Part shown: positions 2,367 through 47,371 of the stretch, one piece after another
Numbering within the stretch: position 1 is the first letter of the stretch
How the letters are laid out: each line of letters starts with the position of its first letter
DNA from: Acidimicrobiia bacterium
GTDB taxonomy: Bacteria; Actinomycetota; Acidimicrobiia; Spongiisociales; UBA5794
Assembly (NCBI GenBank): GCA_036396535.1
Contig: DASWKR010000011.1
Coordinates: 1-51,775, forward strand
Reading direction: 5' to 3'
DNA length: 51,775 bases
The notes under the pieces: generated by a model
Seen by the model: only the letters and a program-made list of their open reading frames with translations
What the model was told of the DNA's origin: nothing
Database searches by the model: none
Made by a program: the position numbers and the translations under genes

Positions 2367-2633
2367 TCAGTCGCGCACCGTGAGGGAGACGAGGACGACG
2401 CCGAGCGCTCCGGGGCCGTCGTCGGACATCTCGAGGTCGCCGGCCATCTCGATGGAGACCCTCGGGGCGTAGCCCCATCGGTGGCGCGCCATGCGGTCTA
2501 CGGCGCTCCCGAGAGACTCCGCGGTGAAGCCGGAGAGGGCGCCGACACGAAGCCGGATGGCTTCGATGCGACGGTTCGGCTCTTCGGCCTCGGCGCGGGC
2601 CAGGAGGTCCCTGACGATCCCCGTCTCATGCAT
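2367..2633 (-). CDS. hypA: HypA-like nickel chaperone lacking the zinc ribbon
   Basis: An 88-residue protein starting MHE, the nickel-binding N-terminal motif of HypA (His2), followed by a recognisable alpha/beta core: a helix, then IEAIRLRVGALSGFTAESLGSAVD, as in HypA. Standard HypA has about 115 residues and a zinc ribbon of two CxxC pairs; here the region between the beta strands (VSIEMAGDLEM...GVVLVSLTV) contains no cysteine at all, so the ribbon is missing while the final strand remains. The stop is followed 2 bp later by hypC, so this is not a truncation at a contig end. It overlaps the protease gene by 8 bp. It may still deliver nickel to HyhL through the MHE motif, without zinc-dependent control. 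Confidence 0.8.
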   Translation of the reverse strand: MHETGIVRDLLARAEAEEPNRRIEAIRLRVGALSGFTAESLGSAVDRMARHRWGYAPRVSIEMAGDLEMSDDGPGALGVVLVSLTVRD

Positions 2634-3054
2634 CGTCGATCTCCCGCGTGACCGTGGCGACGGCTTCCTCGACTTCGGGAGACAGCGCCGTTCCCGAGGT
2701 CAGGTCTCCGGCTTCGATCCCGTACACGACAAGGCTGGCGGGGAGGCGCCGCAGCGCTCTGGCGAGCTCGATCGTCTCGGCGACACCGACGGCATGGGTG
2801 GACGTGAACGTCCCAAGAGGCAGAGGGGCGCGCAATGGATCGAACTGACGGACGGTCCCGGGCGGAGAGCCCGTGCGGGTGGCGTCCACGATGATGACCT
2901 CGTCGGCTTCCTCCCAGAGATCGATGAGCTCGTACGACCCGAACATGACACGGTGCGCCTCGATCGTGCGCACCCGGTCGGCGACCTCGAGGCCAGCGGC
3001 GTCGTCACTCCTGAACGGGTTGCCGAGGCCGATGAGCATGCGCTTCACGGTCAC
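2626..3054 (-). CDS. [NiFe]-hydrogenase maturation endopeptidase (HyaD/HycI family)
   Basis: A 142-residue protease that removes the C-terminal extension of the hydrogenase large subunit after nickel insertion. The start is taken as GTG at 3054, overlapping the hyhL stop in a GTGA junction; this puts the family N-terminus ([16 protein letters not shown]) close to the start, whereas the ATG at 3105 lies in hyhL coding sequence. Visible family features are [11 protein letters not shown] with its acidic nickel ligand, IIVDAT in the middle strand, and THAVG with the metal-binding histidine. HyhL ends in DPCISCATH plus ten residues, the expected substrate. It lies between hyhL and hypA in the operon. 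Confidence 0.93.
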
Positions 3055-4346
3055 GGCTCCCTGTCGACGGTGAGGTCGAGGAAGTGGGTGGCGCACGAGA
3101 TGCACGGGTCGTAGTTGCGGATCGCCTGCTCGAGCTGCCAGCGGAGCTCGTCGTCCCCGAGGGCGGCGTGCCCCGAGGCGTACACCTTGAGGTCATCCTC
3201 GATGCTCAACTGGTTCTGCGAGGTCGGCGGGACGATGTGGGCGTCCGTGATGGCGCCTGCGTCGTCGACCAGGTAGCGGTGGTAGAGCAGGCCCCGGGGC
3301 GCTTCCGTGGCGCCATGACCGACAGCGCCACGAGGGTCGACCGCGATCGACGGTGAAGGGGGCTGCTCGTACTCGGCGATGAGGCGCAGGGCTTCCTCCA
3401 CCGCCAGCACCGTCTCGACGGCTCGAACGACGATGCTCCTGAACGGGTTCCTGCAGACCGGTCCGAGGCCGGCCGTCTCCGCCGCCATCTTGGCGACGGG
3501 CGTGAGCTGCTCCGAGTTCAGGCTGTACCTCGCCATCGGTCCAACGTGAAAGGCGCCCCTCTCCTTGATGTGGGCGTGGAGTGCGTTCGACCATGCGACG
3601 TGGGTCTCCTCGAAGTGCTCGGGCCACTCGTCGACGGCGATGTCGAGACCGCGGTTCGAGACGACGCGGCCTTCGTGTATGGCGTACTCGTCCTCGTGGC
3701 GGAGTGCGACGAACTCGTAGTCCCGCTCGAACTCGGGGAACGAGAAGGCGGAGACCCACTCGGCGGTTGCCAAGGCGGCCTCGAGAGCCCACTCGAGCTC
3801 GGGAACCATGGCGGCCAGCTCCCGGCGGGTCGGTGTCCGATAGAAGCCGCCGACCTTGACGTTGATCGGGTGGATCTCCCTGCCACCGAGGAGCGTCATG
3901 ATCCGGTTCCCGAGCCGCTTCAGGCGAAGGCCTCGCTCGACGATCGCCTGGTGGTCGTGCGCCATCGCCACCGCGCTCTCGTACCCGAGGAAGTCCGGGG
4001 CATGCAGGAAGTAGAGGTGGAGGACGTGGCTCTCGATCCATTCCCCGCAATAGAGCAGCCGTCGCAGGGCGCGGATCGGGCCATCGACCCGGACCCCCGC
4101 CGCGTCCTCCATGGCGGCGCACGAGCTCATCTGGTAGGCGACGGGGCAGATGCCGCAGATGCGGGCCGTGATGTCGGGCACCTCCTTGAACGACCGGCCT
4201 CTGAGGAAGGCTTCGAAGAACCGAGGCGGCTCGAAGATCTTGAACTTCAGGTCGAGCACCTCGTCGCCCCGAAGTTTGAGATACATGGCGCCTTCACCCT
4301 CGACTCGCGCGAGGTAGTCGACCGCGATCTCGCGCTCAGTGCTCAT
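3051..4346 (-). CDS. hyhL: Group 3b-type [NiFe]-hydrogenase large (catalytic) subunit
   Basis: A 431-residue subunit carrying the NiFe active site. The proximal motif is RICGIC (Cys64, Cys67) and the distal motif is DPCISCATH (Cys415, Cys418, His421), giving four cysteine nickel ligands. Ten residues ([10 protein letters not shown]) follow His421 and should be cleaved by the protease encoded immediately downstream. The start at 4346 ([19 protein letters not shown]) overlaps the hyhS stop by 11 bp and matches the family N-terminus; a longer upstream frame is only the shadow of hyhS. With the HyhB/HyhG flavin and FeS subunits this matches the cytosolic, bidirectional NAD(P)-linked group 3b enzymes (sulfhydrogenase type), also found in aerobic actinobacteria such as Mycobacterium smegmatis. 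Confidence 0.96.
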
Positions 4347-5109
4347 GCGCCTCGCTCGCTTCCTTGAACTCCGGGGCGTAGGCATTGAACGTCCGGAGGG
4401 CGAGCACGAGGTCGTGCTCGATGACCCCGAGCTCGGTCCACCGGTCGGTGAGCGATGGCACGTTCGGGGACGTGGCCGGTCCGAAGCATCCGTAGCATCC
4501 GCGGTCATAGGCCGGGCAGATGGCGCCGCAGCCTGCGTGGGTGATCGGGCCGAGACACGGTGTGCCCCTCGTCACCATCACGCACGGCGTCCCTCGCATC
4601 TTGCACTCGACGCACACGCTGTGGCCCGGGGTGGCGGGCTGCCGGCCGGCGACGAAGGCGTCGATGACTTCGACGAGCTGGTGCTTCGAGATCGGACAGC
4701 CTCGCAGCTCGAAGTCGACGTCGATGTGGTCGGCGATCGGGGTCGACGTCTCCAGGGTGTCGATGTATTCGGGGCTGGCGTACACGATGCTGAGGAACTC
4801 GTCGACGTTGCCCCAGTTCTTCAGGGCCTGGATGCCACCCGCTGTGGCGCAGGCCCCGATGGTGACCACCGTGCGAGACACCTCGCGCACTTGGCGGATG
4901 CGTGAGGCGTCGTGTGCGGTGGTGATCGACCCTTCGACGAGGGACAGGTCGTACGGTCCCGCCACCACCCCGCGCGTCGCCTCGGGGAAGTAGGCGATGT
5001 CGATCGCACCCGCGATCGACAGCAGCTCGTCCTCGCAGTTGAGCAGGGTGAGCTGGCAGCCGTCGCACGAGGCGAACTTCCAGACGGCGAGCTTGGGGCG
5101 CCTCGTCAC
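4336..5109 (-). CDS. hyhS: Group 3b-type [NiFe]-hydrogenase small subunit
   Basis: A 257-residue FeS subunit that relays electrons from the NiFe centre. The N-terminus [18 protein letters not shown] carries the proximal-cluster CxxC (Cys15, Cys18) with no twin-arginine signal, so the complex is cytosolic. Further cysteines include the GACATAGG segment, RGCPISKHQ, and a Cys-rich region ([29 protein letters not shown]) for the medial and distal clusters. The start is GTG at 5109, overlapping the hyhG stop as GTGA; this removes an upstream extension that is only the hyhG shadow. It overlaps hyhL by 11 bp, so production of the two subunits is likely coupled. Confidence 0.96.
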
Positions 5110-5966
5110 AGCTCGACCACCCGCATCCGCTCCATCACGCGCCTGTACGGGACCACGGGACCCTGCCGGCAGGCGAAGTCGGGTCCGTACTGGCAGTGGC
5201 CGCAGAACCCGACGGCGCACTTCATGTTCCGTTCGAGGCTGATGAACACGTCCTCAGGGCGCACCCCGGTCGCCTTGAGCTCCCGGGCGATGACCTTCAT
5301 CATGATCTCCGGCCCGCACACCATGGCAAGGGTGTTCGCCGGGTCGAAGGCGATCCTCGGAAGCAGGCCGGTCACGACGCCGACGTCGCCGAACCATCCT
5401 TCGTCGGACCGATCGACGGTCACCTCGATCTCTGCGTCGAAGCGGCTCCTCCACTCCTGGAGCTCGGAGCCGAACAGGAGGTCGCGGGGCGATCTGGCGC
5501 CATAGATCAGGGAGACGGTTCCATAGCGGCTGCGGTCGGTCAGGAGGCGGCGCACCACGGGCCGCAGGGGGGCGAGGCCTATGCCTCCGGCTGCGACGAC
5601 GACGTCTTTGTCGTGGGCCTCGGCGAGCGGCCATGGGGTCCCGTACGGTCCGCGTATGCCGACCTCATCGCCGGCCTCGAGGCCGCAGATCGCCCTGGTC
5701 ACCGCCCCGACCGCTCGGACTGTGTGTGACAGCGACTCCCCGGCGCCGCCGCCGCCCGACACCGATATCGGTACCTCGCCCACTCCGAAGACGTAGACCA
5801 TTGCGAACTGACCCGGTGCGAACGCCGCCCCTCGATCTCCTACCGGCTCGAGGTCGATCGTCACCGTGTCCGCCGTCTCGTGGCGGGAGGCGACGACTCG
5901 ATACGGGCTCGGGAGCATCGCCTCGGCGGGGAGTGGTGGGGTCGTCGATTGCGCACTGTGCGTCAT
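5106..5966 (-). CDS. hyhG: Hydrogenase gamma subunit, FAD/NAD(P)- and [2Fe-2S]-binding
   Basis: A 286-residue flavoprotein of the ferredoxin-NADP reductase type that links the hydrogenase to NAD(P)H. It has an N-terminal FAD-binding beta barrel ([11 protein letters not shown], then VPISVSG), a nucleotide-binding half ([26 protein letters not shown]), and a C-terminal [2Fe-2S] segment with cysteines in [13 protein letters not shown] and FACRQG, as in PyrK/HydG proteins. The start ATG at 5966 overlaps the preceding stop in an ATGA junction. Its place between the cyclic-nucleotide-binding gene and hyhS matches the B-G-S-L order of group 3b operons. Confidence 0.94.
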
Positions 5967-8583: not shown

Positions 8584-8610
8584 GTCGGCGCGCCCGTGCT
8601 CGGGCCGATT

Positions 8611-8632
8611 GTGGCAGGCGGCCGCCTGCCAC
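8611..8632. repeat. Perfect 22-bp palindrome, possible operator or hairpin
   Basis: The bases GTGGCAGGCGG and CCGCCTGCCAC are exact reverse complements with no spacer. It lies in the 146-bp region between the divergent squalene-cyclase-like gene and the PRC-barrel gene, or inside the former if its start is further upstream. It could bind a dimeric regulator or fold as a cruciform; no T-run follows, so a terminator is less likely. Confidence 0.6.
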
Positions 8633-8729
8633 CGCCTCGAGGCGCCAAGGAAAACATGACTCGACGGCGGCGCAGCCGGGTACATGGGCGCTGGATGCAC
8701 AGGCCGCCTGTCTCACGGGAGGACGGAAC

Positions 8730-9077
8730 ATGACGGACATCTGGAGCTACGAGGAAGATCTCGTCGACGTCGTTCAGAGCATCTCCGGCTTCGACGTCGA
8801 AGCACGGGATGGGAGGATCGGCACGATCGATGACGCCACCCTCGACGTGGGTTCGAGCTACATCGTCGTCGACACCGGCCCGTGGATCTTCGGCAAGAAG
8901 GTCCTGCTCCCTGCCGGCCTGATCGAAGCGATCGACCTCGACGAGGAGATCGTCTACGTCGACAGGACGAAGGAGGAGATCAAGAAGGCACCCGAGCTGC
9001 CTGAGGGCTCATTCCGGGACGATGCGTACCGAGTGGACATCGCCACCTACTACGCGTCCGGACCGCTCACGTTCTGA
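8730..9077 (+). CDS. PRC-barrel domain protein
   Basis: A 115-residue acidic protein. SGFDVEARDGRIGTIDDATLDVGSSYIVVDTG followed by KKVLLPAGLIEAIDLDEEIVYVDRTKEEI is the PRC-barrel pattern, as in many short stress- or cell-division-associated proteins of high-GC bacteria. The C-terminal tail (RDDAYRVDIATYYASG) is typical of this small stand-alone form. A GGAGG ribosome-binding site sits just before the ATG. The gene is followed by a strong hairpin (9098-9128), so it is probably a single-gene transcript. The exact role is unknown. Confidence 0.88.
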   Translation: MTDIWSYEEDLVDVVQSISGFDVEARDGRIGTIDDATLDVGSSYIVVDTGPWIFGKKVLLPAGLIEAIDLDEEIVYVDRTKEEIKKAPELPEGSFRDDAYRVDIATYYASGPLTF

Positions 9078-9097
9078 CCGGACATCTGATGAGCCGA

Positions 9098-9128
9098 CGA
9101 CGGCGGTCCCTTCGTGGGGCCGCCGTCG
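9098..9128 (+). terminator. Strong GC-rich hairpin, probable intrinsic terminator
   Basis: CGACGGCGG (9098-9106) pairs perfectly with CCGCCGTCG (9120-9128), and the inner TCCC/GGGG pairs extend the stem to 13 bp around a TTCGT loop. There is no U-tract, as is common in actinobacterial terminators. It lies 21 bp after the stop of the PRC-barrel gene. Confidence 0.7.
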
Positions 9129-9165
9129 CTGTGTCACGCCTGCGACGGGAGGGTAGATAGCCGTC

Positions 9166-9483
9166 ATGGAGCGCACGACACCCATCGGACGTGACCTCGA
9201 GGCGATCACGATCCTCGCCCCGCCGGGGCGCGCCCTCGACCGCATCGATGGAGTGCGCTGGGCCGACCTCGACGAGTTCGGCCACTTCCGTGTGGCTACG
9301 TCAGACGTCGACGACAGCAGGCTGCAGTTCACCGTGGCTGCATCGGATCCCGGGCTGGACCCCGCCAGCGACACTGCCTTGTGCCGCAGCGGCTGGGTAA
9401 CGGCAACCCCGCTCTCGTCCGTGGAGCCGGCCCCGTTCCCCGGCGAACGCGTCGAAGAGCTCTTCCGGATGCGGCCTGGCTGA
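9166..9483 (+). CDS. Small hypothetical protein (105 aa)
   Basis: A 105-residue reading frame placed between a terminator-like hairpin and the saccharide cluster, with a possible ribosome-binding sequence GGGAGG 13 bases before its ATG. The product is acidic, soluble and has no membrane segment or signal peptide. Nothing in it matches a family I know. Codon use (strong G/C at third positions) agrees with the neighbours, and no competing frame here gives a better protein, which is why I keep it. Confidence 0.5.
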   Translation: MERTTPIGRDLEAITILAPPGRALDRIDGVRWADLDEFGHFRVATSDVDDSRLQFTVAASDPGLDPASDTALCRSGWVTATPLSSVEPAPFPGERVEELFRMRPG

Positions 9484-9558
9484 GGGGGGTTTTGTTTCTT
9501 CGATTCGGGGTAGACCGGGGCGTGCCGACGCCGCAATGCATGAAAGGCACCAGGGAGA

Positions 9559-26456: not shown

Positions 26457-27605
26457 ATGACGGAGTTGCGCCATCGCATGGGCAGCGCCCCGGGGCGGAC
26501 GCTGCCGGCGTTGGCGTACGTCGATGTCGAGCATCACGAGCGTGAGATGGTCGACATCTGGTATCGGGAGTGGCTCTACGTGTGCCGGGCGGACACGCTG
26601 GGAGCCGCTCGCAGTTTTCGGACGTTCGAGGTCGGGGATCAGAGCGTGCTACTCGTCCGCGACGACGCCGGGGTCCTGCGTGGATTCCACAACACGTGCC
26701 GGCACAGGGGCTCGCTGCTGTGCGACGCCCCTTCCGGAGTTCTCGGCTCGCGCCGCATCACCTGTCCGTACCACAACTGGAGCTACTCGCTCTCCGGTGA
26801 GCTGCGCAGCACGCCCTTCAACGACGTGGACGAGATGGAGCAGCTCTCCCTGTATCCGGTGGCCGTCGCCGAGTGGCGCGGAATGGTCTTCGTCAACCTC
26901 GCCGCCGACGAGGCCGGGGAGCTCGCAGACTCGATGGACCCCGGGCCGGCGCTGCTCGACAGGTGGCCGCTGGAGACGCTCGTCACCGGGCACACCTTCG
27001 TCATCGACCTGGCATGCAACTGGAAGGTGTTCTGGGAGAACTTCCTGGAGTGCTACCACTGCCCGGGGGTCCATCCCGAGCTGTGCGACCTGGTACCGCT
27101 CTACAGGCGCGGGGTCGTGAGCGCCGACATGGCGGGCGACGGCTGGATCGGCGAGGGTCTGCGCGCCGGCGCCGCCACGTGGTCGATGGACGGCCGCCTC
27201 TGCGGCCCGCCGTTCCCCGAGCTCACCGACGACGAGATCGCGGCCGGGTATACGTTCCTGACCGTCCTACCGACGATGTTCGTCGTCGCCCACCCGGACC
27301 ACGTGAGGATCGTCTCGCTTTCCCCTCTCGGGGTTGCGGGGACCCGGCTCACGGCCGAATGGCTCTTCGCCCCCGAGACGCTCGCGCACGAGGGATTCGA
27401 CATGGGCAACGTCACTGAGTTCGGCGCCCTCGTGATGACGCAGGATGCGGCCGTGTGCGAGCTCAACCAGCGCGGGCTCCGCTCGATCCGGCACGAGCAC
27501 GGCAGGCTCATGCCGAACGAGAATGACATCGCCCTGTTCTACCGATGGCTGGACCGGCGGATCGGCCCTGGTTCGAACGTGGCATGGCCGCGGGAGGGCT
27601 CGTGA
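26457..27605 (+). CDS. Rieske-type aromatic-ring/quaternary-amine oxygenase alpha subunit
   Basis: A 382-residue mononuclear iron oxygenase. The Rieske [2Fe-2S] motif is CRH (Cys81, His83) and CPYH (Cys103, His106); the catalytic iron site is NFLECYHCPGVHPEL with His201 and His206. The spacing and the YHNWSYSLSGELR segment resemble choline/glycine-betaine and related oxygenases as much as true aromatic dioxygenases, so the substrate is open; a betaine-aldehyde-type dehydrogenase lies 12 kb away but not in the same operon. GGAGGG lies just upstream of the ATG. No reductase gene is adjacent. It overlaps the next gene in a GTGA junction. Confidence 0.9.
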   Translation: MTELRHRMGSAPGRTLPALAYVDVEHHEREMVDIWYREWLYVCRADTLGAARSFRTFEVGDQSVLLVRDDAGVLRGFHNTCRHRGSLLCDAPSGVLGSRRITCPYHNWSYSLSGELRSTPFNDVDEMEQLSLYPVAVAEWRGMVFVNLAADEAGELADSMDPGPALLDRWPLETLVTGHTFVIDLACNWKVFWENFLECYHCPGVHPELCDLVPLYRRGVVSADMAGDGWIGEGLRAGAATWSMDGRLCGPPFPELTDDEIAAGYTFLTVLPTMFVVAHPDHVRIVSLSPLGVAGTRLTAEWLFAPETLAHEGFDMGNVTEFGALVMTQDAAVCELNQRGLRSIRHEHGRLMPNENDIALFYRWLDRRIGPGSNVAWPREGS

Positions 27606-34615: not shown

Positions 34616-35620
34616 TCATTGCGGAACGAATGTGACGAGCGCCTTCATGTAGTTTGCCCGCTCGAAGGCGCTCGGGTCGGGGCTCGCCTGCTGGCTCAGG
34701 CTTCCCTTCATCTGCTCGACGGCGTCGTAGCCGTTCGCCGAGAGCCACGCCAGGAGCTCGCGGCGCATCGTCCTGACGTGGCCTGGGCCGTGGCGGAGCA
34801 GTGCAGAGGCCGACATCGCGACGTCTCCTCCGACGAGAAGCACCTTGACGACGTCGTCTGCCGAGTGCACACCCGTGGTTGCAGCCAGGGACACGTCGAG
34901 CCGTCCGTGCAGGATCCCGATCCACGTGAGAGGCAGCCGTAGCTCCGTCGACGTCGAGAGCAAGAGGTTTGGCCTCACGTCGAGGGCACCGAGGTCGACG
35001 TCCGGCTGGTAGAAGCGATTGAACAGCACGAGCCCATCCGCACCGGCGGCGGCGAGTCGCGCCGCGAACTCGGCGAACGACGAGTAGAACGGGCCGACCT
35101 TGACGGCGAGTGGGATGGCGACGCTCTTGCGCACCGACTCGACCATGGCGAGGTGCTCGGCTTCGACCACCGACCCGCTCCTGGCGGCGTCGGCGGCGAC
35201 TTGGTAGATGTTGAGCTCGAGGGCGTCTGCGCCGGCGTGCTCGATGCGCTCGGCGTACGCAACCCATCCTCCCGGCGAGACGCCGTTCAGGCTGCCGATC
35301 ACAGGGATCCGCAACTGGCGCTTGGCGAGCCGCAGCACGTTCAGGTACGACTCCGAGCCGGTGTTGTACTGGAGCATCTCGGGAAGGTGTCCGCCGGAGA
35401 ACTCCGGGGAGAAGTCGGCTCCGAAGTCCGCAACGTCGGCCACTGCGAGGGCGTCGTGGACGATCTGCTCCTCGAACAGGGAAGGCAGCACTGCCGCAGC
35501 GATGCCTGCTTCCTCCAGCGCCAGCAGCGTCTCGATGTCTCCCGTCAGCGGCGAGGCGGAGGCCACGAGCGGACTGGCGAGCTCCAGGCCGAGGTACCGG
35601 GTCGTGAGGTCGACCGTCAT
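34616..35620 (-). CDS. Dihydroorotate-dehydrogenase-like protein linked to nifJ
   Basis: A 334-residue FMN-binding-type TIM barrel. MTVDLTTRYLGLELASPLVASASPLTG is the standard N-terminus, with PVIGSLNGVSPGGWV, IPLAVKVGPFYSSFAEFAARLAAAGADGLVLFNRFY and TTGVHSADDVVKVLLVGGDVAMSASALL in the expected places. Proteins of this group are regularly found beside pyruvate:ferredoxin oxidoreductase and are not the pyrimidine enzyme; function is unproven. The ATG at 35620 overlaps the nifJ stop (ATGA). The longer open frame upstream is the shadow of nifJ. Confidence 0.9.
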   Translation of the reverse strand: MTVDLTTRYLGLELASPLVASASPLTGDIETLLALEEAGIAAAVLPSLFEEQIVHDALAVADVADFGADFSPEFSGGHLPEMLQYNTGSESYLNVLRLAKRQLRIPVIGSLNGVSPGGWVAYAERIEHAGADALELNIYQVAADAARSGSVVEAEHLAMVESVRKSVAIPLAVKVGPFYSSFAEFAARLAAAGADGLVLFNRFYQPDVDLGALDVRPNLLLSTSTELRLPLTWIGILHGRLDVSLAATTGVHSADDVVKVLLVGGDVAMSASALLRHGPGHVRTMRRELLAWLSANGYDAVEQMKGSLSQQASPDPSAFERANYMKALVTFVPQ

Positions 35621-38600
35621 TCCTCGGCCTCCGCGTATACGGCCGTGCGGTGGATGTCGACCATCTGCTCGTAGAGCTGCCAGCGGTCGTCGATGTCCTG
35701 CTGAGCGCGCTCCATCAGATGCTCGGCATGGTGAGGGTTCGATCGGGCGAGCATCGCGAACCGGGCCTCGCTGGCGGCGTACTCGGCGAAGCGCATGGCG
35801 GACTTGCGGCTGTCGAGGCGCAGGCCCGGGTCGCCGGCGGCCTCCGCTCGCGGGTCGTAGCGGTAGAGCGGCCAGTACCCGCACTCGGCCGCCGCTTTCT
35901 GGTGCTGCATCATCGTGCTCATCTCGAGGCCATGGGCGATGCACGGGCTGAAGGCGATGATCAGCGAGGGTCCCGGGTACGACTCGGCCTCGGTGAACGC
36001 CTTCACGACTTGTGTCATGTTGGCGCCCATGGCCACCTGGGCGACGTAGACGTTCCCGTACGCCTGGGCGATCATCCCGAGGTCCTTCTTGCCGGTTGCC
36101 TTCCCGGCAGAGGCGAACTTGGCGACCGCGGCGCGCGGCGTCGCTTTCGAGGCCTGGCCGCCGGTGTTCGAGTACACCTCGGTGTCGAGCACGAGGATGT
36201 TGACGTCCCGTCCTGAGGCGAGCACGTGGTCGAGGCCTCCGAACCCGATGTCGTACGCCCACCCGTCGCCGCCCACGATCCACACGCTCGTGCTCACCAG
36301 GCTGTCGGCGATCTGCTCGAGTGTCCTGGCGCGCCCGTCATCGATGCCGGCGAGACACTCCCTGAGGGCGCCGACCCGTCGGCGCTGCTCGGCGATGCCC
36401 GCTTCGCTCGTCTGGTCGGCGTCGAGGAGCTCCGCTGCGATGTCCCCGATGCGGTCGGCGAGGGCTTCCACGAGATGCTGCGCCGCCTGGGTCCTCTCGT
36501 CGATGGCGAGCCGCATCCCGAGGCCGAACTCGGCGTTGTCCTCGAAGAGCGAGTTCGACCACGCCGGCCCGCGGCCCTCACCGTCGACCGCCCACGGGGT
36601 GGTCGGCAGGTTGCCGCCGTAGATGGATGAGCAGCCGGTGGCGTTGGCGACCACGGCTCGGTCTCCGTAGAGCTGGCTGAGGAGCTTGAGGTACGGGGTC
36701 TCCCCGCAGCCCGCGCACGCCCCCGAGAACTCGAACAGCGGCTCGAGTAGCTGAGAGCCCTTGATGCTGGCGACATCGAGCGTCGTCCTGTCGTGGGGAG
36801 CGATCTCGAGGAAGTAGTCGAAGGACCGGCGGGTGACGGCGAGGGTCGGGTCTTTGGGCGCCATGTCGATCGCCTTGTGGGCGGCCACCTCCTTGCTGCG
36901 GGCCGGGCATATGTCGACACAGACGCCGCAGCCCGTGCAGTCGTCGGGAGCCACTTGGATCGTCATCGCCATGCCTGCGAAGTCCTTGGACTTCCACAGC
37001 TTCGACTGGAACCCGTCGGGGGCGTCCTCTATCGCCGACGGGTCGTATACCTTCATGCGGATCGCAGCATGGGGGCAGACGAGGGCGCACCGCCCGCAAT
37101 CGATGCAGATCTCGGGATCCCACATCGGGATCTCGGTTGCGATCGAGCGCTTCTCGAAGCGAGACGTCGCCGTCGGGAAGGTCCCGTCGACCGGGAAGGC
37201 GCTGACCGGGAGGTCGTCGCCGCGACCGGCGAGGATGACTCCCGTGACCTTGGCGACGAAGTCCGGGACGTCCTCCGGCACGGCGGCACGGATGTGCAGC
37301 GCGGTCGTCGCCTCTGCGGGCACGGGAACCTCTTGCATGGCGTCGATCGCTGCGTCGACCGCTGCGAAGTTGCGTTCGAGCACGACGTCGCCGAATCGCC
37401 CGTATGCCTTCTCGATGGACGCCTTGATCGCGCCGGTCGCCTCCGATCCCGGGACGAGGTCGGTGAGGGCGAAGAAGCAGGTCTGCAGGACCGTGTTGAC
37501 ACGCTTGCCGAGCCCTGCCGTGGTGGCGACCTCGTCTGCATCGATGACGAAGAAGCGAAGCTTCTTGTCGACGATGTGGTGTTGGGTCTCCCGAGGGATC
37601 CTGCTCCAGACGGCGGAGGCCTCGAACGGGGAGTTCAGGAGGAACGTGGCGCCCGGGGCGGCGTGCTCGAGCACGTCGATCTTCTCGAGGATGCCGAAGT
37701 TGTGGCACGCCACGAAGTCCGCCTCGTCGACGAGGTACGTCGACGTGATCGGACGAGGCGAGAACCGCAGGTGAGAAACGGTCATCGCCCCGGATTTCTT
37801 CGAGTCGTACACGAAGTAGCCCTGGGCGTGCCCGCCCCCGCGGGCGCCGACGATCTTGGCCGTGCTCTTGTTGGCGCCGACCGTGCCGTCGCTGCCGAGC
37901 CCGAAGAACAGTCCCCGGAAGACGTCATCGGGCTCGCGCCACTCGGCCGTGACCGGAAGCGACCGTTTGGTGACGTCGTCCGTGATGCCGACGGTGGCGT
38001 GGCGGATCGGCGCAGGCTTGGCCAGCTCTTCGAGGACCGTGAGGGCGTGTGCCGGGGTGAACTCCTTCGAGGAGAGGCCGTAGCGAACCCCGATCGCCTC
38101 GACGTCTCGTCGGCCGTGCTCTGAGAGCGCCGCGACCACGTCGAGGTAGAGCGGATCACCGACCGCGCCCGGCTCTTTGGTTCGGTCGAGCACGGCGATC
38201 GAGCGGGCCGTCTCCGGCAAGGCGGCGAGGAAGGCGTCGCCCGCGAATGGCCGGTAGAGCCTCACGACGATGACGCCGACCTTCTCGTCCCGGGAGGTGA
38301 GATGGTCGACGGCTTCGGTCGCCGCTCCGGCGGCGCTCCCCATCACGACGAGCACCCTCTCGGCGTCGGCGACGCCGTGGTAGTCGAACAAGCGGTAGCG
38401 ACGCCCCGTGTGCTCGGCCAGCCGGTCCATCACCGAAGCCACGATCGCCGGAGTCGCGTCCGTGAACGAGTTGGCTGCTTCGCGGCTCTGGAAGAAGACA
38501 TCGGGGTTCTGGGCCGTGCCGCGCAGCACGGGGCGGTTCGGGTCGAGCGATCGCATGCGGTGAGCGGAGACGAGCCGGTCGTCGACCATCGCCCGGATCA

Positions 38601-39192
38601 CGTCCTCCCGGATGGCGTCGATCGTGGCCACCTCGTGCGACGTGCGGAACCCGTCGAAGAAGTGGAGGAACGGGATCCGACTCTCCAGCGTCGCGACGTG
38701 GGAGACGAGGGCGAGGTCCTGGGCTTCCTGTACCGAGCTCGAGCAGAGCAGGGCCATCCCGGTCTGGCGGGCGGCCATGACGTCGCTGTGATCTCCGAAG
38801 ATGCTGAGGGCATGCGTCGCGATGGTGCGGGCCGCCACGTGGACGACGGCCGGGGTCAGCTCGCCTGCGATCTTGTAGAGGTTCGGCAGCATGAGGAGAA
38901 GGCCCTGCGACGCCGTGAAGGTGGAGCCGAGCGCTCCCGTCTGGATGGCGCCGTGGAGCGCCCCGGCGGCACCCGCCTCGGACTGCATCTCGACGACCTC
39001 GGGGACGGCGCCCCAGATGTTCGTTTTCCCTTGATGGGCCCACGCATCGGCGAGCTCTCCCATGGCGGATGCCGGGGTGATCGGGTAGATCGCCATGACC
39101 TCGCTGAGAGCGAAGGCGATGCGCGCCGCTGCTTCGTTGCCGTCGACGACGATCTGATCTCGGGGTGTCGTTGCTGCCGCCACGGCCACCAT
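35617..39192 (-). CDS. nifJ: Pyruvate:ferredoxin (flavodoxin) oxidoreductase, single-chain
   Basis: A 1191-residue fused enzyme that oxidises pyruvate with CoA to acetyl-CoA and CO2 and reduces ferredoxin, or runs in reverse. Domains in order: pyrimidine-binding domain (DGNEAAARIAFALSEVMAIYPITPAS), transketolase-like domain, gamma domain, two [4Fe-4S] clusters (CIDCGRCALVCP and CTGCGVCVDICP), and the TPP-binding domain (CAGCGETPYLKLL, GGDGWAYDIGFGGLDH, SNTGGQASKATPRAA). The ATG at 39192 has no clear ribosome-binding site; GTG 39189 is an alternative. A long hairpin lies 18 bp upstream. Its oxygen sensitivity suggests low-oxygen life stages. Confidence 0.97.
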   Translation of the reverse strand: MVAVAAATTPRDQIVVDGNEAAARIAFALSEVMAIYPITPASAMGELADAWAHQGKTNIWGAVPEVVEMQSEAGAAGALHGAIQTGALGSTFTASQGLLLMLPNLYKIAGELTPAVVHVAARTIATHALSIFGDHSDVMAARQTGMALLCSSSVQEAQDLALVSHVATLESRIPFLHFFDGFRTSHEVATIDAIREDVIRAMVDDRLVSAHRMRSLDPNRPVLRGTAQNPDVFFQSREAANSFTDATPAIVASVMDRLAEHTGRRYRLFDYHGVADAERVLVVMGSAAGAATEAVDHLTSRDEKVGVIVVRLYRPFAGDAFLAALPETARSIAVLDRTKEPGAVGDPLYLDVVAALSEHGRRDVEAIGVRYGLSSKEFTPAHALTVLEELAKPAPIRHATVGITDDVTKRSLPVTAEWREPDDVFRGLFFGLGSDGTVGANKSTAKIVGARGGGHAQGYFVYDSKKSGAMTVSHLRFSPRPITSTYLVDEADFVACHNFGILEKIDVLEHAAPGATFLLNSPFEASAVWSRIPRETQHHIVDKKLRFFVIDADEVATTAGLGKRVNTVLQTCFFALTDLVPGSEATGAIKASIEKAYGRFGDVVLERNFAAVDAAIDAMQEVPVPAEATTALHIRAAVPEDVPDFVAKVTGVILAGRGDDLPVSAFPVDGTFPTATSRFEKRSIATEIPMWDPEICIDCGRCALVCPHAAIRMKVYDPSAIEDAPDGFQSKLWKSKDFAGMAMTIQVAPDDCTGCGVCVDICPARSKEVAAHKAIDMAPKDPTLAVTRRSFDYFLEIAPHDRTTLDVASIKGSQLLEPLFEFSGACAGCGETPYLKLLSQLYGDRAVVANATGCSSIYGGNLPTTPWAVDGEGRGPAWSNSLFEDNAEFGLGMRLAIDERTQAAQHLVEALADRIGDIAAELLDADQTSEAGIAEQRRRVGALRECLAGIDDGRARTLEQIADSLVSTSVWIVGGDGWAYDIGFGGLDHVLASGRDVNILVLDTEVYSNTGGQASKATPRAAVAKFASAGKATGKKDLGMIAQAYGNVYVAQVAMGANMTQVVKAFTEAESYPGPSLIIAFSPCIAHGLEMSTMMQHQKAAAECGYWPLYRYDPRAEAAGDPGLRLDSRKSAMRFAEYAASEARFAMLARSNPHHAEHLMERAQQDIDDRWQLYEQMVDIHRTAVYAEAEE

Positions 39193-44457: not shown

Positions 44458-45465
44458 ATGAGCGCCGGAGCGGTCACGGTCGACATCCATTGTCACCTGG
44501 CGACTCCTGCGGCCGCCGCCGCGGTCGAGGACCACAAGCGTCCCCGGTACGAGCCGTACGACTACTTCATGGGTGCCGATTCGAAGGAGCACAACCGGGA
44601 GATGTTCCCGACGATCATCGAGGCGCTCCGCAACCCGGCCGCCCGGATCGAGCACATGGACCGCATGGGCATCGACGTGCAGGGCTTGGCGACGTTCGTC
44701 TCGGAGTACGGGTATTGGGCACCGGCCAAGGTCGGCGCCGAGTCTGCCCGCCTGCAGAACGAGCGACTGGCGGCCGCGGTGGCGGACTTCCCCGACCGTT
44801 TCGTGGCGCTGGGGGCGACCGTGCCGCTCCAGGATGTCGACATGGCGATCGCCGAGATGGACCGGGCCGTCGACGACCTGGGGTTCAAGGGCCTCCAGAT
44901 AGGTGGCACGATCCACGGCCACAACCTCGACGAGCCAAGGTTCCGGCCCTTCTGGCAAGCCGTTGCCGCCAAGGGCGTTCCCGTGATCCTGCACCCGAAC
45001 GGTTACGAGGAGAGCCACCGCCTCGGTGAGTACTTCCTCGTCAACTGCGTCGGCAACCCTCTCGAGACGATGGTTGCGGCGAGTCGGCTGATCTTCTCGG
45101 GGCTCTTCGAAGAGTTGCCCGACCTCCGGCTCGTGCTCCTCCACGGTGGCGGGTACCTGCCGTTCTACAGCTCGCGGTCCGACCACACGTGGGAGGTGCG
45201 GCCCGAGACCAGGGTTGCGATCCCGGACCATCCGCCGAGCCACTACATGAGGCGGCTGTACTACGACACGATGGTGTTCCAGCCGATCTATCTGCGTCAC
45301 CTCGTCGAGATCGTCGGCGCCGATCGCGTCATGGCGGGGACCGACTTTCCGTTCGACATGGGCGAAACCGATCCGCTCGGGCTGGTCGACGCCACCGACG
45401 GCCTCGACGAGGACGAGCGAGCCGCCATCAAGGGGGGCAACGCCCTGCGGGTGTTCTCGTTGTGA
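44458..45465 (+). CDS. Amidohydrolase-2 (ACMSD-type) metal-dependent hydrolase/decarboxylase
   Basis: A 335-residue TIM-barrel enzyme. VDIHCH gives the first metal ligands (His11, His13), PVILHPNG and LVLLHGGGYLPF carry further histidines, and MAGTDFPFDMGETDP the catalytic Asp. The family includes decarboxylases of aromatic or unsaturated keto acids and lactone-type hydrolases. DYFMGADSKEHNREMFPTIIEAL is a loop typical of the family's decarboxylase-like members, but this is not decisive. It is the first catabolic gene after gntR and overlaps the selenoprotein gene by a GTGA junction. Confidence 0.88.
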   Translation: MSAGAVTVDIHCHLATPAAAAAVEDHKRPRYEPYDYFMGADSKEHNREMFPTIIEALRNPAARIEHMDRMGIDVQGLATFVSEYGYWAPAKVGAESARLQNERLAAAVADFPDRFVALGATVPLQDVDMAIAEMDRAVDDLGFKGLQIGGTIHGHNLDEPRFRPFWQAVAAKGVPVILHPNGYEESHRLGEYFLVNCVGNPLETMVAASRLIFSGLFEELPDLRLVLLHGGGYLPFYSSRSDHTWEVRPETRVAIPDHPPSHYMRRLYYDTMVFQPIYLRHLVEIVGADRVMAGTDFPFDMGETDPLGLVDATDGLDEDERAAIKGGNALRVFSL

Positions 45466-46466
45466 GCGCGCCGAAGCTCGATCCCGGCCTCGGGTTGTCC
45501 CCCGTCGACTTCGACGAGATCGGACCGCCCATCGGGCAGCGCTTCCCGGACGTCGTCCTGCCCGACCAGACGGGGCGCGCCGTCGACCTGCACGCCGACC
45601 GCGCCGGACGCCCGGCGCTCGTGGTCGTCCACCGCAGCGCAGATTGGTGACCATGGTGCAAGATGCAGCTGGTCGAGTTGCAAGAGACGGCGGCGAGCAG
45701 CAGTGACCTCGCCGTCTACGCAATCTCGTACGACCCGGTCGATGTGCTCGCCGACTTCGGGGCCCGGCACGGCATCTCGTATCGGCTGCTCTCCGACGTC
45801 GGGAGCATCGCAATGAGCGCACTGGGGGTGCTGAACCGCAGTATCGCCGCCGATCAGGCGTACTGGGGATGGGCGTACGAGGACAAGCACCACGGCCTGC
45901 CGTACCCCGGGTCGTTCGTGTTGGACCCGTCAGGCATCGTGGTCGACAAACGCTTCGAGCGATCGCACAGGAACCGTCGCACGAGCCGATCGGTCGTGGA
46001 GGACCTCGGCCTCGTGGCAGCCGGCGACGGCGCCGAGGTGAGCGCTACCGCGGCGGCGGACGGAATCACTGCCGCCGCCTACCACGCAACCGCATCCGTC
46101 TTCCCGAACCAAGTGAGCACCGTCAGGGTCGACGTGGCGCTGGATCCAGGCGTGCACGTGTTCGTCCCGCCGACGAGCGGCGGGTACACGCTGCTGGAGG
46201 CTTCCATCGAGGCGCCGGACGGCGTCTTCTGGGACGAGCCGGATCCTCCGTCGGGGGAGCCCTTCCTCATCGACGGCATCGACGATGAGCTTCAAGTGGT
46301 CGAGGGGCGGGCAGCGCTCGAGATCCCATTCCACGTTCACGAGAAGACGGGCGAAACCGTCCGCTTCACGATCGTGGTGAGATACCAGGCGTGCTCCGCC
46401 ACGATCTGTCTCCCACCGGGCGAGATCCGGCTCGAGCTGTCTCTCGTCGTCAGGCCGAAGATGTGA
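45462..46466 (+). CDS. Selenocysteine-containing redoxin (AhpC/TSA-like) fused to a DsbD-alpha-like domain
   Basis: Read through the in-frame TGA at 45648-45650, this is a 334-residue protein with Sec63. The start GTG 45462 overlaps the amidohydrolase stop and the true stop overlaps the next start. Residues about 20-165 form a thioredoxin/peroxiredoxin domain: RFPDVVLPDQTGRAVDL, then VVHRSADW-U-PWCKMQLVELQ, where Cys-containing relatives have SADWC-P-x-C, so the motif is UxxC (Sec63, Cys66), then LPYPGSFVLDPSGIVVDKR. The C-terminal 140 residues (VDVALDPGVHVFVPPTSGGYTLLEASI, then FTIVVRYQACSATICLPP with Cys311 and Cys316) resemble the DsbD alpha domain. There is no signal peptide. A conventional annotation would stop at TGA or start at ATG 45663 and lose the active site. 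Readthrough is inferred; the coding continuity and hairpin are seen. Confidence 0.88.
45648..45682 (+). other. UGA selenocysteine codon with bacterial SECIS-like hairpin
   Basis: After the TGA (45648-45650) there are 13 bases and then TGCAGCT (45664-45670), loop GGTCG (45671-45675), AGTTGCA (45676-45682): a 7-bp stem with one G-U pair. The loop begins 21 bases after the TGA and contains GGUC, the apical loop sequence of the E. coli fdhF SECIS. Bacterial SECIS elements lie within coding sequence directly after UGA, as here, and recruit SelB. Confidence 0.85.
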
Positions 46467-47371
46467 CCACGATCCGGGCGGGCGGCTACGCGCCCCGCGA
46501 CAGCACACACACGCGGGCGCTCGAGCACATCGCCCGGCGGCTCGATGCCGCCGTCGACGGAGCGGTCGCGGTCGAGATCGTGCCCAACATCATGGACCTG
46601 GGACGCCAGAGCTCCGACCTCCTCGACATGGTCGAAGGCGGTGAGCTGACGCTGTGCTATTTCTCGACGAGCTACCTCGGAGAGCGGGTACCCGAGCTGA
46701 ACGCCCTCGAGGTTCCGTTCCTGTTCGACACCCTCGACGAGGCACACTCGGCCATGGATGGGTCTTTCGGGGCGGCCCTGACGGCGGCAACGGAGCGCCG
46801 CACCGGTCTCGAGGTGCTCGGCTACTGGGACAACGGCTTCCGCCATCTCACGAACGCCCGCCATCCCGTCCATGTGCCGGAGGACGTGGCCGGCCTGCGG
46901 GTGCGCCTCCAGCCGAACCGGGTCCACGAGGCGATGGTCGAAGCGTGGGGAGGCATCCCGGTCGCCGTCGAGCTGAGCCGCGGGATCGAGCTGCTGATGG
47001 CCGGCGAGGTCGACGCCCAGGAGAACCCGCTGGCGAACACCACCGCATGCGGGGTGGACGCCATCCATCCCCACGTGACCATGACGGCCCACCTCTTCGG
47101 GGCTCGCGGCGTCTACGCAAATCCGAGATCGCTCGAGGCGCTGCCTGCCGAGGTCGCCGATGAGCTGCGGATCGCCGCTCGCGACGCCATCGCCTTCCAG
47201 CGCCCGGCGGCGGCGGCCTTCGAGAACGAGACGCGAGAGAAGATGGCCGCCGCCGGGACGGCGTTCGTCGATCCGACACCCGACGAGAGGGCCGCCTTCG
47301 TCGCGGCGACGGCGCGTGTCGCCGAATGGGCGAGGTCCGAGGTCGGCGAGGTGGTTCCGTGGCCGACGTGA
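46463..47371 (+). CDS. TRAP-type (DctP/YiaO) solute-binding protein without a signal peptide
   Basis: A 302-residue protein of the TRAP periplasmic binding family: RALEHIARRLDAAVDGAVAVEIVPN, YLGERVPELNALEVPFLFDTLDEAHSAMDG, GLEVLGYWDNGFRHLTNARHPVHVPEDVAGLRVRLQPNRVHEAMVEAWGG and AGEVDAQENPLANT are its standard segments, with the Arg in LRVRLQ positioned to bind a carboxylate. The start GTG 46463 overlaps the selenoprotein stop, and the mature fold begins at once (TTIRAGGYAP), so there is no export signal. No DctQ or DctM gene is present. It may act in the cytoplasm as a ligand carrier or sensor; another start with a signal peptide does not exist in frame. Confidence 0.88.
   Translation: MTTIRAGGYAPRDSTHTRALEHIARRLDAAVDGAVAVEIVPNIMDLGRQSSDLLDMVEGGELTLCYFSTSYLGERVPELNALEVPFLFDTLDEAHSAMDGSFGAALTAATERRTGLEVLGYWDNGFRHLTNARHPVHVPEDVAGLRVRLQPNRVHEAMVEAWGGIPVAVELSRGIELLMAGEVDAQENPLANTTACGVDAIHPHVTMTAHLFGARGVYANPRSLEALPAEVADELRIAARDAIAFQRPAAAAFENETREKMAAAGTAFVDPTPDERAAFVAATARVAEWARSEVGEVVPWPT

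Follow-up and report, generated by a model that had tools for sequence, protein, structure and literature searches.

The gene at positions 45462..46466 (forward strand) of the window, i.e., the whole stretch of 51,775 nucleotides analyzed here (contig DASWKR010000011.1, from an Acidimicrobiia bacterium), very probably encodes a genuine selenoprotein, in which an AhpC-TSA domain is joined to a DsbD_N (DsbD-alpha) domain and the UGA at 45648 is read as selenocysteine (Sec). This reading, which an earlier note on this DNA had proposed, is predicted from sequence and is very well supported, because the UGA is conserved, the hairpin that follows it is frozen at synonymous sites and fits the bacterial SECIS (bSECIS) model, and the genome holds a complete Sec machinery. 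From the GTG start at 45462 the frame is open to the TGA stop at 46464-46466, giving 334 residues with which homologues align end to end, and its sole interruption is TGA 45648-45650 (residue 63); the continuation of the frame past this codon to 46466, as described in the earlier note, was thus borne out. The expected splitting of the gene by standard gene callers was also observed, as calling with translation table 11 yielded two pieces instead of one (45189..45650 and 45663..46466). When the 263 TGA triplets in the window that are flanked on both sides by 40 or more open codons were ranked by the coding score of their weaker side, TGA 45648 came first with a score of 19.8, as compared to 11.6 for the runner-up. 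This coding scan and the conservation of the TGA support the predicted Sec63 (45648..45650, forward strand; motif RSADW-U-PWC). Among the next-best candidates in the scan, TGA 2119 (forward strand) looks like an ordinary stop. Promoters and terminators were scanned for around the gene and none were detected.

Homologues were searched for among 60 relatives first and then among 395 genomes of the class. The full architecture was found in 13 genes from 12 of these 395 genomes (source genome counted), indicating that the fused selenoprotein is rare in the class; all 13 proteins match both Pfam domains, and the 12 homologues outside the source genome (in 11 genomes) show 30-51% identity to the window protein. 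Match scores were bimodal, with E values of 1e-113 or better for the fused family and of approx. 1e-20 to 1e-26 for redoxin-only proteins. The earlier note had suggested that homologues be aligned to see whether Cys or Sec stands at residue 63; in this alignment, all 11 fusion homologues that cover the site carry TGA (12/12 with the window gene; motif RSA[DV]W-U-P[WHP]C), and the redoxin-only relative L022 carries Cys (WCPYC). The 13th gene (L053) is truncated, as its contig ends directly behind the active site, and it is outside this count. No Cys version of the fusion was present among the full-architecture homologues found in the class. Three records from a wider contig collection, all MAGs (classified as Acidimicrobiia, Acidimicrobiaceae and unclassified), have the same TGA; these may equal loci G348, G042 and G040 and were left out of the homologue count. 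Because the TGA is kept in every homologue covering the site, chance and sequencing error are ruled out as its source on the basis of this comparison. Searches of plasmid and phage collections gave either no match or partial matches confined to the redoxin part. Two redoxin-only loci from other genomes of the same family (L034 and L042) carry an in-frame TGA at this same position, in WUPYC (match region approx. 1500-1800), and are probably Prx-like selenoproteins.

A SECIS-like hairpin is located at 45665..45681 (forward strand), with the stem GCAGCU/AGUUGC and a 5-nt loop (GGUCG) that starts 20 nt past the UGA. As a scan of the window at Rfam gathering thresholds gave no match, the hairpin was assessed by sequence comparison. 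All six stem pairs are formed in 12/12 sequences (family form GCAGCU-GGUCG-AGYUGC). Stem variation is limited to two pairs and to one-sided G-U wobble; no compensatory two-sided change was observed across the 12 sequences, because the protein constrains the same bases. Codons 69-73 were found to be frozen at synonymous sites, with a mean excess codon identity of 0.43 as compared to 0.02 for 31 other invariant residues. None of 20,000 permutations of the codon excess reached 0.43; this value is a rank and not an exact probability, as the sequences share ancestry, although this holds equally for the control residues. The folding energy for 45663-45686 is -8.9 kcal/mol. The bSECIS model in the excerpted text of PMC13188914 specifies a loop of 3-9 nt, a stem of 4-16 bp, G in the first two loop positions, a distance of 16-37 nt from the UGA and an MFE of at most -7.5, and the hairpin lies within these limits (loop of 5 nt, GGUCG, 6 bp, 20 nt and -8.9 kcal/mol).

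The source genome (3.13 Mb in 94 contigs, 96% complete) was examined for selA, selB, selC and selD, as the earlier note had advised, and all four genes were found. The selB gene was identified by a profile match that scored above the curated threshold, and selA (identified by place and sequence) lies immediately upstream of selB on the same strand, in one operon. A tRNA-Sec with anticodon UCA is located on contig C35; ARAGORN found none beside selAB. The selD gene (L047, G000:C35:175508-176434) has its own in-frame TGA at the established Sec position, GAG-U-ACK. As selA, selB, the UCA tRNA-Sec and a TGA-bearing selD are all present, the organism has, judging from its gene content, the whole Sec pathway and, with selD, at least one further gene for a selenoprotein of known family. 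Of the 11 other carriers of the fusion, 9 yielded selB and 8 yielded tRNA-Sec, and all gaps fall in assemblies that are 68-77% complete. However, most non-carriers of the same order also have the machinery (selB in 15/16 and tRNA-Sec in 14/16), so that the Sec machinery is necessary for the fusion gene but non-diagnostic, i.e., co-occurrence fails to discriminate.

These data also bear on the hypothesis that the locus encodes two proteins, with a stop at 45648 and a restart at ATG 45663, or represents a decayed pseudogene. While translation table 11 reads the locus in this way and an ATG does occur five codons past the TGA, the second of two proteins would have its start within the first helix that follows the active site, which would split the domain. 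Moreover, all 12 sequences, at identities as low as 30%, have TGA at this codon, without a single TAA, TAG or random stop, and the flanks on both sides are conserved. Both the synonymous freeze of codons 69-73 and the presence of the full Sec machinery argue against two proteins as well as against decay, which makes this hypothesis extremely improbable.

The N-terminal half of the predicted selenoprotein matches PF00578 (AhpC-TSA) over residues 24-161 (45531..45944, forward strand; E = 8.6e-20), a region that includes Sec63xxCys66 and Pro149; the match is unbroken at residue 63, in agreement with the earlier proposal of one continuous redoxin domain across the TGA, and the proposed UxxC redox motif is found in this domain as Sec63-Pro-Trp-Cys66. 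AlphaFold2 modeling from the alignment gave a pLDDT of 84.8 for the whole protein, and a fold search with residues 20-186 retrieved AhpE and Bcp/PrxQ peroxiredoxins (Z approx. 20 over approx. 150 residues). On the other hand, the claim that the TGA stands exactly at the peroxidatic position was not confirmed: in the alignment to AhpE and PrxQ, Cys66 corresponds to the peroxidatic Cys, and Sec63, three residues before it, corresponds to the Thr/Ser of PxxxTxxC. Ser59 stands at the place of the peroxiredoxin (Prx) Pro and Pro149 at that of the Prx Arg, and both are invariant in the covering homologues. The protein hence has neither the PxxxTxxC motif nor the active-site Arg of catalytic peroxiredoxins, and has both the AhpC-TSA domain and the active-site UxxC of Prx-like UxxC selenoproteins. 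The combination of a CxxC-like pair and a cis-proline is the thioredoxin pattern; by alignment, Pro149 occupies the position of the cis-Pro in thioredoxins.

If the selenoprotein were a peroxidase, Cys66 or Sec63 would reduce hydroperoxides with electrons supplied by the DsbD-alpha domain, and a catabolic pathway would thereby be protected against peroxide. Such a role would be consistent with a fold that is nearest to AhpE and PrxQ peroxiredoxins, with the occupation of the peroxidatic place by Cys66, and with the FAD-dependent oxidoreductases and the LigB dioxygenase near some homologues, which fit a need for peroxide removal. We nevertheless regard it as quite unlikely, since every homologue covering these sites has Ser59, Sec63 and Pro149 in place of the Prx Pro, Thr and Arg and since the UxxC plus cis-Pro pattern belongs to thioredoxin-like oxidoreductases. 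As Sec63 is, in addition, off the peroxidatic place, we infer that a thiol:disulfide oxidoreductase, and not a peroxidase, is the best interpretation of the redoxin half.

The C-terminal DsbD-alpha-like domain described in the earlier note was recovered as a match to PF11412 (DsbD_N) over residues 211-321 (46092..46424, forward strand; 36.8 bits as compared to a cut-off of 25), which includes Cys311 and Cys316 (YQACSATIC). The AlphaFold2 model of the C-domain alone had a pLDDT of 91.0, and in a fold search with this domain the first 11 rows (11/11) were ScsB or DsbD-alpha (Z 10.1-11.4, 105-125 residues, 2.1-2.9 A), with unrelated immunoglobulin-like domains ranking below (Z <= 9.6). The motif YQAC-x4-C-x2-P (Cys311, Cys316 and Pro319) is invariant in 13/13 proteins, as would be expected for a redox pair. 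DsbD-alpha could instead be a binding or targeting module only, with Cys311 and Cys316 forming a structural disulfide or a metal site and without electron flow; the immunoglobulin-like fold of DsbD-alpha is used for docking, and the source genome has no DsbD_N domain other than this one, both of which would agree with such a role. The invariance of the YQAC, the second Cys and Pro319 argues against it, however, and a structural disulfide in the cytoplasm would be unusual, so that we consider a purely binding role unlikely.

No Pfam match to DsbD_TM was found in the fused protein, and no signal peptide, hydrophobic N-terminus or transmembrane segment was visible on reading its sequence; the protein thus carries neither the export signal nor the DsbD_TM that a DsbD membrane reductase has in the same polypeptide. 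These observations agree with the cytoplasmic location suggested in the earlier note and indicate that the fused protein is probably soluble and cytosolic. A separate DsbD_TM/CcdA-like membrane protein is encoded in the source genome, and nothing ties it to the fused protein.

If the gene is decoded as proposed, SelA, SelB, SelC and SelD would insert Sec at UGA 45648 via the SECIS hairpin 20 nt downstream, and the product would combine an N-domain with a peroxiredoxin-family fold and a thioredoxin-type site with an immunoglobulin-like DsbD-alpha C-domain. Sec63 would most likely attack a disulfide (or a sulfenic acid), and a selenenylsulfide would then form between Sec63 and Cys66. Reducing equivalents would pass between Sec63/Cys66 and Cys311/Cys316 inside one soluble polypeptide, by analogy to the thioredoxin-fold cDsbD handing electrons to nDsbD, with the direction of electron flow likewise a prediction. 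Taken alone, a thiol:disulfide relay of this type appears moderately likely.

The gene upstream encodes an amidohydrolase (PF04909; 44458..45465, forward strand) and its stop (45463-45465) overlaps the GTG start at 45462, consistent with the coupling to the preceding gene that had been proposed earlier. Downstream, a DctP solute-binding protein (PF03480) is encoded at 46463..47371 (forward strand), and its GTG overlaps the stop of the selenoprotein gene (ATGTGA); the selenoprotein gene therefore overlaps with its neighbors on both sides, as in translational coupling. This DctP begins at the mature domain with no signal peptide visible, and a location in the cytosol would be unusual for a solute-binding protein. 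Locus L067 of genome G282 has the same pair of overlapping genes, likewise with a signal-less DctP (8588-9513). The fused selenoprotein occurs twice in this genome, as divergent copies (L067 and L068) with different catabolic surroundings. Homologues of the aldehyde dehydrogenase of the window were found near six relatives, and DctP, cupin and Ldh_2 genes were found approx. 4 kb downstream at L066. Conversely, the most distant members of the family (L073-L075) have none of these neighbors, save a weak zinc-dehydrogenase match in L074, and the cluster association is for this reason a trait of one order and not of the fused family. The link to this operon made in the earlier note consequently holds for the DctP pair in one other genome and for a similar catabolic setting in the same order, and it does not extend to the distant members. 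It is possible, though somewhat doubtful, that the protein is a DsbD-like relay that operates in the cytosol without a membrane and serves a dedicated client of the same catabolic cluster, e.g., the adjacent signal-less DctP or a neighboring dehydrogenase as putative partners. Elsewhere, at 2367-5918 and 35617-39192, the window holds a nickel-dependent hydrogenase gene cluster and a pyruvate:ferredoxin oxidoreductase; a Rieske ring-hydroxylating oxygenase (26457-27605) occurs in the same window as the hydrogenase cluster.

Prx-like thiol:disulfide oxidoreductase selenoproteins (PF00578, UxxC/UxxU) have been predicted with high confidence, according to the excerpted texts of PMC13188914 and PMC9312934. 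The fused family shares with the Prx-like UxxC selenoproteins the AhpC-TSA domain, Sec as the first residue of UxxC and a bacterial SECIS; unlike the table entries in these excerpts, which have no C-terminal DsbD_N, it carries one in 13/13 proteins. TsoB, a rhodanese/DsbD fusion-like selenoprotein (NF045694) listed in the excerpted PMC13188914, is likewise a selenoprotein with a DsbD-like part, but has a rhodanese domain with UxxxxU, and the window protein does not match NF045694 up to E = 1. No NCBIfam model matched the fused protein above its cut-off. In the excerpts of open-licence literature searched, no Prx/DsbD_N selenoprotein fusion was found, nor was such a protein named for this lineage (Acidimicrobiia-like MAGs). 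Overall, the kind of selenoprotein is known (Prx-like UxxC, PF00578), and the variant in which it is fused to a soluble DsbD-alpha domain is new, within the class and the excerpted open-licence literature; it adds to the bacterial selenoproteome a two-domain subfamily that standard annotation fragments.

As compared to AhpE and PrxQ (Bcp), the fused protein has the same fold but lacks the catalytic Pro, Thr and Arg and has UxxC instead. In DsbD, electrons pass from cDsbD, which has a thioredoxin fold, to nDsbD, which has an immunoglobulin fold, and nDsbD in turn reduces the clients (PMC7347389). In both the window protein and E. coli DsbD, a single polypeptide carries a redox domain of thioredoxin fold together with a DsbD-alpha domain that has a Cys pair. 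In contrast to E. coli DsbD, the fused protein has no transmembrane domain or visible signal peptide, shows the reversed domain order, has Sec in place of Cys and a peroxiredoxin-like instead of a DsbD-gamma domain, and has four residues between Cys311 and Cys316 as compared to five between C103 and C109. DsbD-alpha, which is known to distribute reducing power in the periplasm, would thus occur here in a soluble, apparently cytosolic selenoprotein, and whether relays of the DsbD type can function in the absence of a membrane becomes directly testable on one recombinant protein.
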